A stretch of DNA of 64,000 nt from assembly GCA_903840385.1 (NCBI GenBank), contig CAIMFT010000158.1:1-64000 (forward strand), read 5' to 3'. Shown here piece after piece: positions 5,116 to 11,306 of the stretch; positions within the stretch are counted from its first letter, which is position 1, and the number at the start of each line of letters is the position of its first letter. A model generated the notes under the pieces. That model made no database searches and was not told the origin of the DNA. It was given only the letters and a program-made list of their open reading frames with translations. Origin of the DNA: an uncultured Holophagaceae bacterium (GTDB lineage Bacteria; Acidobacteriota; Holophagae; Holophagales; Holophagaceae). Position numbers and translations under genes: made by a program.

Positions 5116-5202
5116 ACTAGGCCCCCTAACCAGGTAGTTTTAAAATCGCAGGTTGTATTTCGCTAAATTTTCGCCATACTTGGATCCCCTCTGGAGGTTC
5201 TG

Positions 5203-6354
5203 GTGCTGGCGATGTGGGTTCCTGAGCTGCCGTTCCAGCTGGCCTGCGGGCGGGATGGGGCCCTGCGGGAGCGGCCCCTGGCCTTCCTGAACCCGGAGAC
5301 GCCCCGCACCCCCAGCCTCTGGTTTGTGAACCGCCTGGGCCGCGCCGAGGGCCTGGCGCCGGGCCTGCCGCTGGACCAGGCCCTGCGGACCCTGCCGAGC
5401 CTGCGGGTGCTGGACCCGGCCCCCCAGGTCTGGTGGGAGGCCCAGGTCTCCCTGGGGGACTTCCTGCAGCAGTGGACCCCCCAGGGGCAGCTGCTGCGGC
5501 TGGGGGAGGCCCTGGTGGAGCTGCAGGGCACCCAGGGGCTCTTCGGGCCCCTGCCAGACACTGCCGAGCGCATCCGCCAGGAGCTGAGCCGGCGGCATGG
5601 CTGGGAGGGCCATGGGGGGCTGTCCCTGAGCGCCACCGCCGCCCAGTTCGCCGCCCGCACCGAGCATGGGCTGGCCTGCGTGGGGGAGGGGGCTGAGGCC
5701 GTCTTCCTGGCCCCCCAGCCCCTGGTCCGCCTGGCCGACCTGGCCCCGCGCCTGCGGGAGCGCCTGCACCGCCTGGGGCTGCGGTCTTTCGGCGACCTGC
5801 AGCCCGTGCCCCTGCCCGTGCTGGTGGAGCTGACGAACCCCAAGCTGGCGCCGGACCTGCGGGCCCGGGTGCGGGGCGAGGACCGGCCCCGCCTGCCCCT
5901 GCTGGCGGAGCGCCCGGGCCACGCCCGCCACGGCTGGCGCCTCCAGCCCCCCTGCCTCCCCGAGGAGGCGGGCCTCGCCGCTCGCTGCCTCCACTGGCTC
6001 TGGTCCGATCCCCGCAGCCCCCGCCGCCTGGCCCTCCGCTGGTGGGATGTGGATGGGGAGCTGCACAGCTGGCGGGCCGCCTCGGAGGACCTGGCGGCGC
6101 CGCCCCTGGCCCTGGCCCGCCGCATCCAGGAGGCCTTCCTGGCGGGGGCCACCCGCCGGGTGCTGGTGCGGGAGGCGGAGCTGCGCCTGGCCTGGGGCCT
6201 GGGGCAGGAGCGGGCGCTCTTCCAGGACCCCCTGCAGGCCCGCCTCGACCGCCTGGAGCCCGTCCTGGCCCGCCTCCGCCGCCGCTTCCCCGACCAGGCC
6301 ATCCTCCCGGGCTGGGCCGGACGGGGTGACACGACGCTTGAAACAAGCCAATAA
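5203..6354 (+). CDS. imuB: ImuB-like, catalytically dead Y-family polymerase homologue
   Basis: A 383-residue protein with the ImuB start pattern (AMWVPELPFQLA), a degenerate Y-family core (LVELQGTQGLFGPL) and the helix-hairpin-helix part (LGLRSFGDLQPVP). The acidic catalytic residues of active Y-family polymerases are missing, as in known ImuB proteins, which act as adaptors linking the beta clamp, ImuA and the error-prone polymerase DnaE2/ImuC. A GTG start at 5203 is preferred: GGAGG at 5193-5197 is five bases away. It is shorter than many ImuB proteins (about 500 residues). dnaE2 begins six bases after the stop, giving a two-gene operon; no imuA is next to it. An AT-rich leader (5130-5180) may hold the promoter, but no LexA box was recognised. 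Confidence 0.85.
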   Translation: MLAMWVPELPFQLACGRDGALRERPLAFLNPETPRTPSLWFVNRLGRAEGLAPGLPLDQALRTLPSLRVLDPAPQVWWEAQVSLGDFLQQWTPQGQLLRLGEALVELQGTQGLFGPLPDTAERIRQELSRRHGWEGHGGLSLSATAAQFAARTEHGLACVGEGAEAVFLAPQPLVRLADLAPRLRERLHRLGLRSFGDLQPVPLPVLVELTNPKLAPDLRARVRGEDRPRLPLLAERPGHARHGWRLQPPCLPEEAGLAARCLHWLWSDPRSPRRLALRWWDVDGELHSWRAASEDLAAPPLALARRIQEAFLAGATRRVLVREAELRLAWGLGQERALFQDPLQARLDRLEPVLARLRRRFPDQAILPGWAGRGDTTLETSQ

Positions 6355-6359
6355 AAGCC

Positions 6360-9284
6360 ATGTTCGCCCTCGGCATCTCCGACTTCAGCACCGGTGAAGG
6401 TGTGTACCAGACTTCCCAGCTGCTGCGGGTGGCCCGGGGCTTGGGCTACCGGGACCTGGTCTGCTGGGACCGGGGCACGGCGGCCTACCCGAAGCTGCGG
6501 GAGAGCCTGGCCTGGTTCCACCGCTCCCGGGAGCTGGAGGGTCTGCCCCCGGACCCGGCCTGGACGGGCTTCCGCCTGCACCTGGGCTGTCGCTTCAGCT
6601 GGCGGGGCCACGGCTACGGTGCCATCCCCAGTACCGATGCCGGCCACGGCGCCCTGAACCGCCTGCTGTCGGCCCAGGCCCACGGGGCGCGGCCGGAGCT
6701 GGCGGTGCCGGGCCTGGGGGTTGGCGAGCCGCCCCGGGACTGCCTGCTGCTGGCGGAGGACCGGGCGGGCCTGGACGCCCTGCTGCGGGAGGGCTTCGAG
6801 GCGGCGCTGCTGGGTCATCCCCTGCGGGTGCAGGAGGCCCGGGCCGCCCTGGCCCAGGGCCTGACGGTGGTGGCCCCCCAGGTGCTGCGCTTCCGCACGC
6901 CTGAGGGCCTGGCGCTGCACCGCCTCAAGCGGGCCATCGCCGGGCAGTCCACCCTGGTGCGCACCGAGAGCCTGTGGGCCCCCGCCGAGGCTGCCGTGCC
7001 CCGGGCCGAGTGGGAGGCGCGCTTCCCCGCCGCCGAGCCCGCCGTGGCCCGGAGCACCGCCGCCCTGCTGGCGCGCCTGGGGGACTGGGCCATCCCCTGG
7101 GGCACGTGGGTGGTGGCCCGCCCCCTGGGCCTCGAGGACGCCGACCTGGACGCCCTGCTGCGGGAGCGGGCGCAGGCGGGTCTGGTGACCCGCTTCCTGC
7201 GGCCAAGCGGGGCGCACCTGGCCCGCCTGGACCAGGAGCTGGACCTCATCTCCCGCAAGGGCTTCGCCCGCTACTTCCTGCTGGTGCAGGACATCGTCCA
7301 GGCCCTGAAGCACGAGGGCATCCCCAGCCGCATCTGTGGGCGGGGCAGCGGGGCGGCCTCCCTGGTGGGCTATGCCCTGGACCTCAGCAACGTGGACCCC
7401 GTGGACACGAACCTGCTGTTCGAGCGCTTCCTCACCATGGAGCGGAAGGACCCGCCGGACATGGACATCGACTTCCCCTGGGATGAGCGGGACCGGGTCA
7501 TCCAGGCGGTCTTCGAGCGCTACGGCCGGGAGCGGGTGGCCATGGTGTCCAACCACACCTTCTTCAAGGCCAAGGGGGCCCTGCGGAGCGTGGCTCAGGC
7601 GCATGGGCGGCCCGCCAACGAGCTGAAGCAGCTGGCCCGGCTGGTGCGGGGCTGGGAAGGGGGGCTGGGCCGCGCCGGGGAGAACCCCGCCTGGGCGGTG
7701 CTCCTCCACCAGGCCGCGGCCCTGGAGGGCCACTTCCACCAGTTCTCCGTGCACCCCGGCGGCACCCTGGTGACGCCGGGGCCCCTGTGGTCCCACGTGG
7801 CCTTCCAGCCTGCTCCGGCCAAGGAGGGTGTGTCCATCACGGCCTGGGACAAGGATGGCGTGGAGAACTACGGCCTGGTGAAGATCGACCTGCTGGGCAA
7901 CCGCAGCCTCGCCGTGCTGCGGGATGCCTACGCCGTGCTGGGCGACGCCGTGCCCCGGGACCCCGGCACCCACTCCCGGAAGGACCCCGCCACCCAGGCC
8001 CTGCTGGCCCGGGGCGACAGCATCGGCGTCTTCTACGTGGAGAGCCCCGCCACCCGCCAGCTGCAGCAGCGGGTGGGGAAGGGCGACTTCGAGACCCTGG
8101 TGATCCACTCCAGCCTCATCCGCCCCGCTGCGCACCGCTGGGTGGACCGCTACGTGCGGCGCTCCCGGGGCGAGGAGGCCTGGACGCCCAGCGATCCGGT
8201 TTTTGGACAGTTGCTGTCGGAAAGCCACGGCGTGCTCGTCTATCAGGAGGATGTGCTGAAGGTGTGCGTGGCGCTGGCGGGGTGGACCCACCACGAGGCC
8301 GATCAGCTGCGCAAGCTGCTGGGCAAGCCCGGCTGCGAGGGGCGTCTGCCGGCCTTCGAGGCCCGCTTCCGGCGGGGCTGTGCGGACCGCGGGGTGCGTC
8401 CGGAGGTGGTGGAGGAGGCCTGGGACATGATCCGCACCTTCACGGGCTACTCCTTCTGCAAGCCGCACTCCGCCAGCTATGCCCAGGTGAGCTTCGAGAG
8501 CGCCTGGGTCAAGGCCCACCACCCGGCGGCGTTCTTCGCGGCGGTGATCACCAACCAGGGCGGCTTCTACCCGGCCATCGCCTACCTGGGGGACGCCCGC
8601 CGCCACCGCCTGGTGGTGCGGGGCCCGGATGTGAACGCCTCCGCCTGGCCCTTCACGGCCGAGGGCGAGCAGGGCCTGCGGGTGGGCCTCATGCAGGTGC
8701 ACAGCGCCCTGGAGAAGGAGGTCCGCGCCCTGCTGGAAGAGCGGGAGCGGCACGGCCCCTTCGTCAGCCTGGACGACCTGCTGGGCCGGGTGGCGCTATC
8801 GCTGCCTACTGCGGAGGCCCTCTGCGCCGCCGGGGCCTTTGACCGCTGGGCCCCGGACGGTGACCGCACCCGCCTGCTGTGGACCCGCCTGGGGGGCGTG
8901 CCACCGGGCGTGCGGCCGCGTCCCACGGACCCCTTCGACCGGGCCGACCTGGAGCTGGCCACCCTGGGCCTTACTCTGGAGCTCCATCCAGCTGCCTTGG
9001 CCCGGGTGCGGAAAGGCGGCGGGTCTGACCGCGCCGCCGATGCCGCGCAGCCCGGCCGCCGCCTGCAGTTCTGGGCCCTGGTGGTGGCCGATAAGGACGT
9101 GGCGACGGAAAAGGGCGAGCGCATGCAGTTCATCACTTTTGAAGATGAAACGGGCCTTTGCGAGGCGGTGGCCTTCCCAGATGTGCTCCGCCGCCGCCAG
9201 CGGCCCTTCCGGGTGGGGGACCTGGTCCCCGTGGCGGGCAAGAGCACCCTCCAGGATGGCCTTCCAGTGCTTGAAGTGGGCTGA
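6360..9284 (+). CDS. dnaE2: Error-prone DNA polymerase DnaE2 (ImuC)
   Basis: A 974-residue C-family polymerase alpha subunit. The palm carries GRGSGAASLVGY and PDMDIDF (Asp369 and Asp371 as likely catalytic pair), with the third acidic residue in VKIDLLGNRSL. FCKPHSASYAQVSF and the HPGG motif are typical of DnaE2, and an OB-fold lies at the C-terminus. Position directly after imuB supports translesion synthesis during damage response. The N-terminal PHP region (about 1-100) is degenerate: the usual HxH and DHD metal ligands are replaced (ISDFSTGEG, CWDRGTAAY), so this domain should not bind metal. The protein is somewhat shorter than typical DnaE2 (about 1030-1080). The start follows imuB closely; its ribosome site is weak, suggesting translational coupling. 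Confidence 0.92.
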   Translation: MFALGISDFSTGEGVYQTSQLLRVARGLGYRDLVCWDRGTAAYPKLRESLAWFHRSRELEGLPPDPAWTGFRLHLGCRFSWRGHGYGAIPSTDAGHGALNRLLSAQAHGARPELAVPGLGVGEPPRDCLLLAEDRAGLDALLREGFEAALLGHPLRVQEARAALAQGLTVVAPQVLRFRTPEGLALHRLKRAIAGQSTLVRTESLWAPAEAAVPRAEWEARFPAAEPAVARSTAALLARLGDWAIPWGTWVVARPLGLEDADLDALLRERAQAGLVTRFLRPSGAHLARLDQELDLISRKGFARYFLLVQDIVQALKHEGIPSRICGRGSGAASLVGYALDLSNVDPVDTNLLFERFLTMERKDPPDMDIDFPWDERDRVIQAVFERYGRERVAMVSNHTFFKAKGALRSVAQAHGRPANELKQLARLVRGWEGGLGRAGENPAWAVLLHQAAALEGHFHQFSVHPGGTLVTPGPLWSHVAFQPAPAKEGVSITAWDKDGVENYGLVKIDLLGNRSLAVLRDAYAVLGDAVPRDPGTHSRKDPATQALLARGDSIGVFYVESPATRQLQQRVGKGDFETLVIHSSLIRPAAHRWVDRYVRRSRGEEAWTPSDPVFGQLLSESHGVLVYQEDVLKVCVALAGWTHHEADQLRKLLGKPGCEGRLPAFEARFRRGCADRGVRPEVVEEAWDMIRTFTGYSFCKPHSASYAQVSFESAWVKAHHPAAFFAAVITNQGGFYPAIAYLGDARRHRLVVRGPDVNASAWPFTAEGEQGLRVGLMQVHSALEKEVRALLEERERHGPFVSLDDLLGRVALSLPTAEALCAAGAFDRWAPDGDRTRLLWTRLGGVPPGVRPRPTDPFDRADLELATLGLTLELHPAALARVRKGGGSDRAADAAQPGRRLQFWALVVADKDVATEKGERMQFITFEDETGLCEAVAFPDVLRRRQRPFRVGDLVPVAGKSTLQDGLPVLEVG

Positions 9285-9646
9285 TTTATCCCCAGGCGCA
9301 CCGGCGTAACTGCCTCGGAAATGTAGCAATACAGATGCGTTGCGTGTCCAGGAATACATCGAAAAGGAATTATGAAAAAACAATGATCAAACCGTAACAG
9401 GTTTAATTAAATCCTACCGATAACGTTCGATTGTAAGGAATTGCTAGAACCCTGCATTGTCAATCATAAGTCAAATTTAATTAGTAATTTGCATTGCTTG
9501 TTCAAGGTTGTATTGGTAGTAAAAAAAATACAAAACACCGATGAATCGATTGAAAAATTTACATAATGTCGAGATTTATTGTGTGGATAATGCGTCAAGG
9601 AATCCTGAGTCTATCCGAACTAAATTTATGGACGGAGGACCAAAAA
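9285..9646. other. AT-rich spacer between dnaE2 and the MerR/B12 regulator
   Basis: About 360 bases, far richer in A+T than any neighbouring gene. No gene was recognised. It holds TTATCCCCA (9286-9294, one mismatch to the DnaA box), an exact DnaA-box consensus on the minus strand (TGTGGATAA, 9582-9590), the 13-mer AAATCCTACCGAT (9409-9421) that recurs at 51236-51248, and a MerR-type promoter candidate at 9550-9580. It is the natural place for operators of the downstream regulator. Confidence 0.6.
9550..9580 (+). promoter_or_regulatory. Candidate MerR-type promoter with central dyad
   Basis: TTGAAA (9550-9555) and TTTATT (9575-9580) are separated by 19 bases, the long spacing used by MerR-family promoters. 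The perfect dyad ACATAATGT (9561-9569) sits exactly in the middle of the spacer. The -10 match is weak (4 of 6), so this is a proposal only. Confidence 0.35.
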
Positions 9647-10489
9647 ATGAAAGACGGCACACTGCTCAGCATCGGGGATATCTGCTCTGAGACGGGTCTG
9701 ACTGTGGATGTGATTCGTGCCTGGGAGCGCCGCTATGGCTTCCCTGTGCCCCTGCGTCTGCCCTCGGGGCACCGGCGCTATACGGAGGCCGACTTGGCCA
9801 GGCTGCGCCTCATGGCCCAGGCCGTGTCCAATGGCCACCGGGCCAATCGGGTGGCGAAGGCGGAGGATGTCGGCCTGCGCCACATGATCCTCCCGGCCTC
9901 GAACCCCAACGTGGAAGCCCTGTTTACCCATGTGCTGGCCATGGACGGCGAGGCGGTCGGGGCCTGCCTGCGGGAGCACCTGCTGGTAGCGGAGTGGGAC
10001 GAGGTCCTCCGGGACCTGGTCGCCCCCCTGCTGGACCGGTTCAGTGTTGCCTGGGCCGATGGCCTCGTCGAGCCCCACCATGAGCACCTGCTGTCCGAGG
10101 TCCTGGAGGACTTCCTGCGCAACCTGCGGCGGGAGTACCACCCCCTGCCGGGGCGGGGCAAGGTCCTGCTCTGTACCCTGCCCGGAGAGCGGCACCGCCT
10201 GGGCCTGCTCATGGCCGCCATGGCCTACGCGGCCAATGGGGCGCGGACAAATGTGCTGGGACTGGACCTGCCCCTTGCCAGCATCGCCCATGCGGCCAAG
10301 GCCCTGGGGGTGGATCGGGTGGCGGTGTACATGTCCGTCCAGTCCTCGGGCGAGACCGTCCGGCGCATGCTCGATGACCTGCGGGCTCGCCTGCCGGAGG
10401 ACTGCCGGCTCCTGCTGGGGGGCAAGGGTGCGGCCCGCACCCGCAAGGTCAAGGGCGCTGAGAGGGTCGATGACCTGAACGTGGCCTAG
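9647..10489 (+). CDS. MerR-family regulator with CarH/LitR-type cobalamin-binding domain (putative B12 photoreceptor)
   Basis: A 280-residue protein with an N-terminal MerR winged-helix (residues 9-50: TVDVIRAWERRYGFP, SGHRRYTEADL), a four-helix cap (about 85-165) and a B12-binding Rossmann domain (about 170-265). The cap has Trp136, nine residues, then Glu146-His147, exactly the W-x9-EH signature of light-sensing CarH proteins. The Rossmann part has E181-x-H183-x-x-G186, the ExHxxG variant that places the lower cobalt ligand. In known relatives, adenosylcobalamin-bound tetramers repress in the dark and fall apart in light. Start at 9647 follows GGAGGA (9634-9639); the longer in-frame start at 9566 lies inside the AT-rich spacer. 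Targets are not shown by the sequence; dnaE2 lies just upstream and mazG downstream. Confidence 0.85.
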   Translation: MKDGTLLSIGDICSETGLTVDVIRAWERRYGFPVPLRLPSGHRRYTEADLARLRLMAQAVSNGHRANRVAKAEDVGLRHMILPASNPNVEALFTHVLAMDGEAVGACLREHLLVAEWDEVLRDLVAPLLDRFSVAWADGLVEPHHEHLLSEVLEDFLRNLRREYHPLPGRGKVLLCTLPGERHRLGLLMAAMAYAANGARTNVLGLDLPLASIAHAAKALGVDRVAVYMSVQSSGETVRRMLDDLRARLPEDCRLLLGGKGAARTRKVKGAERVDDLNVA

Positions 10490-10523: not shown

Positions 10524-11306
10524 ATGGAACCCGCCACCCTCCGCGCTGTCATGGCCGTCCTCCGGAACCCGGAGAACGGCTGTCCCTGGGACCTGAAGCA
10601 GGACCACCAGAGCCTCGCCCGCTACCTCCGGGAGGAGGCTGCGGAGGTGCTGGAGGCCCTGGCGGCCCACCGCCCGGGCGACCCGGCCACGGAGGCCCAC
10701 CTCTGCGAAGAGCTGGGTGACCTCTGGCTGCAGGTCGCCTTCCATGCCCAGATGGCTGCGGACCGCGGTGCCTGGGACCTCCATGACGTGGAGCAGGGCG
10801 TGGTAGACAAGCTCGTGCGGCGGCATCCACACATCTTTGGCGAGACGGCGGTGGCGGGGGCTGAGGAGGTCCTCACCAGCTGGGCGGCCATCAAGCGCGA
10901 AGAAAAAGGTGAGGTGTCCGAGCCTCGCCTGCTGGCGAGCATCCCCGCCACCCTCTCGCCCCTGGACGAGGCCCTGGAGATCGGCCGGCGCTGCGCCAAG
11001 GTGGGCTTCGAGTGGCCCGACCTCGAAGGGGTGCTGGACAAGGTGAAGGAGGAGGTGGCTGAGCTGCAGGCCGAGTCCGATCCCGTGCGGGTGGAGGAGG
11101 AGTTCGGCGACGTGCTGTTCAGCCTCATGCAGTGGGCCCGCAAGAAGGGTGTGGACCCCGATGCCGCCCTGCGCAGCCAGATGCTGCGCTTCCGCACGCG
11201 GTTCGCGGCCGTTGAGGACGACGCCCGGGCCAATGGCGGCTGGGAAGCCCGCACCCTCGACCAGATGGAGGCCGCCTGGCAGGCCGCCAAGCGGCGCAGC
11301 GGCTGA
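10524..11306 (+). CDS. mazG: Nucleoside triphosphate pyrophosphohydrolase MazG
   Basis: A 260-residue MazG with two tandem all-alpha MazG domains. The N-terminal one shows the family hallmark CPWDLKQDHQSL followed by EEAAEVLEAL and EELGDLWLQVAFHAQMA; the second (about 145-240) shows KVGFEWPDLEGVLDKVKEEV and EEFGDVLFSLM. The ExxE and ExxD acidic clusters that bind Mg are present in both. MazG hydrolyses (d)NTPs to monophosphates and pyrophosphate, cleaning damaged nucleotides and adjusting alarmone levels. It begins 34 bases after the B12 regulator in the same direction, so co-transcription is possible. Length fits E. coli MazG (263). Confidence 0.92.
   Translation: MEPATLRAVMAVLRNPENGCPWDLKQDHQSLARYLREEAAEVLEALAAHRPGDPATEAHLCEELGDLWLQVAFHAQMAADRGAWDLHDVEQGVVDKLVRRHPHIFGETAVAGAEEVLTSWAAIKREEKGEVSEPRLLASIPATLSPLDEALEIGRRCAKVGFEWPDLEGVLDKVKEEVAELQAESDPVRVEEEFGDVLFSLMQWARKKGVDPDAALRSQMLRFRTRFAAVEDDARANGGWEARTLDQMEAAWQAAKRRSG

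Follow-up and report, generated by a model that had tools for sequence, protein, structure and literature searches.

CarH of Thermus thermophilus (PDB 5c8d/5c8e) is the closest described relative of the protein considered here. Its upper-ligand histidine, His132, which gives the bis-His light state, is frequent in CarH proteins without being universal, and was not used here to exclude a protein from the family. The H132A variant of the Thermus protein stays mostly tetrameric under light in one study, with which an earlier report disagrees (PMC10442372), and CtMerR (8jbs/8jbt), which has the B12 cap and the lower ligand and carries an Arg at the His132 position, is nevertheless converted from tetramer to monomer by green light (PMC11796333). 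The known CarH operator consists of tandem 11-bp nnnnTnnACAn repeats, but operator design is plastic in the family (PMC9304148). A B12-independent CarH paralogue, CarA of Myxococcus, has lost the Trp of the site but not its His residues (PMC9304148). The other system of relevance is the ImuB-DnaE2 mutasome operon, and a search of the available literature returned no paper linking CarH with DnaE2.

The locus described in the following, found in an uncultured Holophagaceae bacterium, brings these two systems side by side. The window, i.e. the whole stretch of 64,000 nucleotides that was analysed, belongs to a genome of 3.1 Mb (G000), which was compared with those of 46 congeners and of further members of the family; the genus is probably Geothrix-like. 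The features discussed are:

5159..5174, + strand: TTCGCTAAATTTTCGC, promoter element conserved ahead of imuB and not dependent on CarH; putative SOS box
5203..6354, + strand: imuB-like Y-family polymerase gene, 383 amino acids, GTG start, judged to lie outside the CarH unit
6360..9284, + strand: dnaE2-like error-prone polymerase gene, 974 amino acids, judged to lie outside the CarH unit
9285..9646, + strand: AT-rich spacer of 362 bp upstream of carH-B, probable promoter/operator region
9647..10489, + strand: carH-B, 280 amino acids, with a MerR DNA-binding domain, a four-helix cap (W136/E146/H147) and a Rossmann B12 domain (H183)
10524..11306, + strand: mazG nucleotide pyrophosphohydrolase gene, 34 bp downstream of carH-B

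The initial annotation placed a CarH-type regulator directly behind an error-prone polymerase operon, and this arrangement is borne out, with imuB and dnaE2 immediately upstream. The ATG at 9647, preceded by a GGAGG-like ribosome site, is the best choice for the start of the gene, whose stop codon ends at 10489; it is preferred over an alternative in-frame ATG at 9566 because the closest relative does not keep the frame 5′ of 9647. The product is matched by the Pfam MerR_1 profile (8.5e-13) and by the B12-binding (1.3e-6) and B12-binding_2 (2.9e-4) profiles, both slightly under their curated cut-offs, while CarH is by far its best NCBIfam family (4.5e-34, 118 bits, far under an equivalog cut-off of 400 bits that is tuned to close orthologues). 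The Thermus protein is its best sequence relative in the PDB (5c8d, 1.5e-25), at approximately 30% identity, and CtMerR is matched more weakly (E 5e-8). An AlphaFold model (mean pLDDT 84) finds Thermus CarH (5c8e/5c8d) as all of its top Foldseek matches (E 5e-15), its B12 domain superposing with a TM score, normalized to the target, of 0.74 at 3.6 Å. The nearest named relative, with a CarH that is 95% identical, is a metagenome-assembled genome of an uncultured Holophagaceae bacterium, and comparison with the orthologue of genome G031 gives a dN/dS of 0.08. With sequence, profile and predicted fold in agreement, the resemblance is one of homology and not of chance, and the protein is a genuine member of the CarH family.

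For all the CarH copies of the family, which fall into three kinds described below (33 of type A, five of type C and six of type B), the counterparts of the functional residues of the Thermus protein were located. The protein of the window shares with the Thermus protein the domain order, the RxWERRY recognition helix (R24-A-W26-E-R-R-Y30), the Wx9EH cap (W136, E146, H147) and the D/ExHx2G...S...GG motif with its lower ligand (E181-R-H183-R-L-G186, S230, GG258-259), although the distance to the Ser of this motif is of 43 residues rather than 41. The cap and ExHxxG residues named in the initial annotation are thus found as numbered, when counted from ATG 9647, and its view of the protein as of the CarH type is supported by homology, residues and fold alike. 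The four residues proven to contact AdoCbl in CarH are all kept, as are the Arg-Asp dimer pair (R182, D207) and one of the two glycines of the tetramer interface (G198); the position of the other, G160 of Thermus CarH, is taken by P166, and Pro is common there in CarH (PMC9304148).

Three changes set the protein apart from Thermus CarH, namely His132 to Ala137, Gly128 to Ser133 and Val138 to Pro143. Ala occupies the His132 position in every aligned homologue of the family, 44 in total, and Ser133 and Pro143 are restricted to type B, where every copy that spans the two positions has them. Judging from these residues, the adenosyl pocket is unusual for the CarH family. The spacing 'as in light-responsive CarH' claimed earlier holds for the cap and the lower ligand and fails at the His132 equivalent and at the GxxW motif, which reads SxxW (S133-V-A-W136), so that three of the four elements of the SignatureFinder light signature (GxxW, EH, GxxH, GxxxP) are present. 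In CtMerR, the Gly of GxxW contributes a main-chain carbonyl, and a Ser may, therefore, be tolerated in its place. As CtMerR, with an Arg in place of His132, monomerizes in the light, Ala137 weakens the prediction of a light response but does not remove it, and the protein is probably a light-sensitive B12 repressor. The same genome carries a gene for a cobalamin adenosyltransferase.

Sorted by gene context, the CarH proteins of the genus are of three kinds. Type A, the commonest, is surrounded by a response-regulator gene, a YoaK-like membrane gene, asparaginase and serS; type C adjoins cytochrome bd genes; and type B is found at the imuB-dnaE2-carH-mazG locus, whole or partial, in six genomes (G000, G031, G023, G030, G045 and G003; in G023 the two halves lie on separate contigs). 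The genome of the window also holds a type A copy (G000 C11, L074), which is 57% identical to carH-B and has all the AdoCbl contacts, but differs from it in having the type A neighbourhood and an upstream GTCTA-N10-TAGAC palindrome. In trees, all B copies are placed to the same side of a moderately supported branch (93/77 with outgroups, 90/79 without), a grouping that also agrees with their common Ser133 and Pro143 and their common locus. One type C copy (L067, in G030) has Ser for the Trp of Wx9EH with all other B12 contacts intact, which may be a further move away from the sensing of AdoCbl.

The B12 site is intact in the window copy and in its G031 orthologue. In the four other B copies (G023, G030, G045 and G003), the cap His is replaced by Ala, His183 by Arg and Gly186 by Asp, and one of them (L081) carries an internal deletion in addition. 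That these eroded copies might be pseudogenes was considered and rejected, since dN/dS among three of them is 0.17-0.20; by this measure the eroded copies remain under purifying selection. As duplicates of a CarH they recall CarA; however, CarA lost the Trp and kept its His residues, whereas the eroded Holophagaceae copies kept the Trp and lost both His, and in carH-B of the window the site is intact. The most interesting aspect of the locus is, then, a possible second and independent transition from CarH to a CarA-like protein by way of different losses. We offer it tentatively, and hold it to be on the doubtful side: within a single subclade of Holophagaceae, a CarH duplicate placed behind dnaE2 and ahead of mazG would be in the course of conversion, one lineage after another, from a light sensor that depends on B12 (window, G031) to a regulator that does not (G023, G030, G045 and G003). 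Damage tolerance or the cleaning of the nucleotide pool would in this way be tied to light or to its former signal. The locus offers a test case for loss of the chromophore with regulation kept, since its closely related CarH copies include some that have the B12 ligands and others that do not, all under purifying selection.

As to what carH-B may control, the gene is separated from dnaE2 by the AT-rich spacer of about 360 bases that had been singled out at the outset as room for operators, and this description is confirmed, with a GC content of 37% at 9401-9700 against approximately 70% in the surroundings. Spacers of 360-507 bp, likewise AT-rich, separate dnaE2 from carH in the genomes that have both flanks. 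The spacer is 91% identical to that of the relative G031 (CAITBU010000301.1), as compared with synonymous differences (pS) of 0.26 in carH and 0.21 in mazG, which makes it the best candidate for carH-B binding; this conservation rests on one genome pair, in which divergence rises along the locus from a pS of 0.07 in the dnaE2 tail, and recombination may have contributed. Neither the tandem 11-bp CarH operator nor the CarH-A palindrome rises above shuffled sequences in 9285-9646 (nor does the former in the imuB leader), and the scan of the spacer gave no sigma-70 consensus promoter. Rfam reported only tRNAs, hence no RNA family in the spacer, and no strong structure is predicted there (fold z -1.5). 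The main target of carH-B is most likely its own promoter within the spacer, on the evidence of this conservation; autoregulation, likely for CarH-A, is for carH-B a matter of inference.

The mazG gene lies close behind carH-B, at 34 bp in the window and at 49-91 bp in the other B genomes, which makes carH-mazG the likeliest controlled unit, and the two genes are probably co-transcribed. Elsewhere in the genus, mazG stands behind a MurC/Mpl-like gene, usually 4-30 kb further on from dnaE2, so that it appears to have changed promoters in the carH-B locus; in the congeners inspected, no co-inheritance of carH with mazG was seen prior to the rearrangement. From gene order, the dnaE2-carH adjacency is best read as one rearrangement beside mazG in one subclade, and not as a pairing that was repeatedly selected.

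The polymerase genes, for their part, have a conserved promoter of their own. The imuB-dnaE2 junction is only 5 bp long, imuB is found in 40 of the 47 genus genomes and dnaE2 is strongly matched in 62 of the 77 family genomes; in most loci inspected, the gene that follows dnaE2 is not carH, and imuB-dnaE2 is mostly found with no CarH beside it. TTCGC-N6-TTCGC is present in 37 of 39 distinct imuB leaders from the genus and the family, CarH-less genomes included (e.g. G007, G018, G026 and G037), while the CarH half-site TnnACA is present in just two of the 39. The element is a candidate SOS box of Holophagaceae. The only other near-copy in the genome of the window (C57:30333-30348, L313) precedes a radical-SAM gene by approximately 10 bp. 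In about half of the congeners, imuB and dnaE2 are separated by small gene pairs resembling toxin-antitoxin modules (L072, L152, L155, L157, L161-L164, L168, L173 and L184), which are absent from the window.

Taken together, these data suggest a model, to which we give about even chances, in which carH-B is an AdoCbl-binding, CarH-type dark repressor of its own carH-mazG unit, with imuB-dnaE2 driven separately. In the dark, AdoCbl would be clamped between the W136/E146/H147 cap and its lower ligand H183, oligomers would form through contacts at R182-D207 and at G198, and the MerR domains of the protein would sit on DNA, mainly at the carH-B promoter within the 362-bp spacer. Green or white light would cleave the Co-C bond and release carH-B from DNA; expression of carH-mazG would accordingly rise in the light or when AdoCbl is lost, and MazG could then clean a damaged nucleotide pool, while imuB-dnaE2 would respond to its own conserved promoter, probably upon DNA damage. 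Against the model speak Ala137, the SxxW motif, Pro143, a spacer with no recognized operator and the four of six B copies that have no B12 ligands.

Some of these same features would fit a protein that binds B12 with no light switching and senses AdoCbl availability, or redox state or oxygen, through its altered cap (A137, S133, P143). The missing His132 equivalent throughout the family, the Thermus H132A variant, which mostly does not fall apart under light (PMC10442372), and the changes of the B clade around the adenosyl pocket all favour such a sensor, which we nevertheless regard as unlikely, given that CtMerR still monomerizes in green light with no upper-ligand His (PMC11796333), that AdoCbl is itself photolabile and that the W, E, H and H of the site are intact in carH-B. 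A different source of expression is conceivable for carH-B, too. Transcription may run on from dnaE2 into carH, as the scan of 9250-9680 for a terminator-like site after dnaE2 was empty, and in that case carH-B and mazG would be expressed from the damage-induced imuB-dnaE2 operon, with carH-B giving feedback late in the SOS response instead of regulating it. The genes are on the same strand and their order is retained in the subclade; however, an AT-rich spacer of 360-507 bp contrasts with the tight imuB-dnaE2 junction, and the terminator scan covered one simple type only, so that we rate this course of events as quite improbable.

Most tempting was the idea, raised by the initial annotation, that light primes mutagenic repair, carH-B repressing imuB-dnaE2 in the dark, for which speaks the dnaE2-carH adjacency retained in six genomes of one subclade. 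The idea found no support here and we consider it very improbable: the polymerase pair is older and widespread with no adjoining CarH, carH lies downstream of the operon and not in front of it, the adjacency goes back, as it seems, to a single rearrangement next to mazG, and binding of B12 by the normal ligands is impossible in four of the six B copies. Nor does 5116-5202, put forward as a second CarH target, contain any TnnACA half-site, holding instead the TTCGC-N6-TTCGC element, which occurs genus-wide and independently of CarH. Light control of imuB-dnaE2 was, therefore, rejected, and an attractive link from light to mutagenic repair is removed. The preferred reading remains that of a dark repressor of carH-mazG.

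The wider photoprotection context also differs from that of Thermus CarH. The initial annotation had noted that no carotenoid gene is present in the window, which holds and extends to the whole genome and to the 46 congeners, none of the 47 having a phytoene/squalene synthase (SQS_PSY, PF00494). Photolyase was considered as a CarH-linked gene and rejected, being similarly present in genomes with CarH (26 of 31) and without it (13 of 16), with no CarH-A palindrome, up to one mismatch allowed, at the 18 photolyase loci checked.

The palindrome GTCTA-N10-TAGAC precedes CarH-A in most genomes, mostly at approximately 62 bp upstream and at approximately 123 bp in the lineage of the window's genome (L074/L212, G000 C11:19848-19867, besides about 20 other CarH-A loci). 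Its arms are inverted TnnACA half-sites, in contrast with the tandem repeats known for CarH, and its position is consistent with autoregulation as the rule in the family. It also adjoins ribA (GTP cyclohydrolase II) in three genomes (L299, L309 and L311) and lies upstream of an epimerase (DUF1731)-SRPBCC gene pair in two (L305 and L310), pointing to a small light regulon under CarH-A, with ribA and the epimerase-SRPBCC pair as candidate targets. Together with these candidates, the palindrome would mark out a light regulon among bacteria that lack carotenoid synthase genes. In the Holophagaceae genus g8, with small genomes of 0.9-1.2 Mb, CarH proteins with His142 replaced by Lys have two tandem palindromes upstream (L077-L079). 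In the genome of the window, two overlapping palindromes (C136:194-225, L226) and a third (C82:3508-3527, L221) all precede genes for similar small proteins with no Pfam match.
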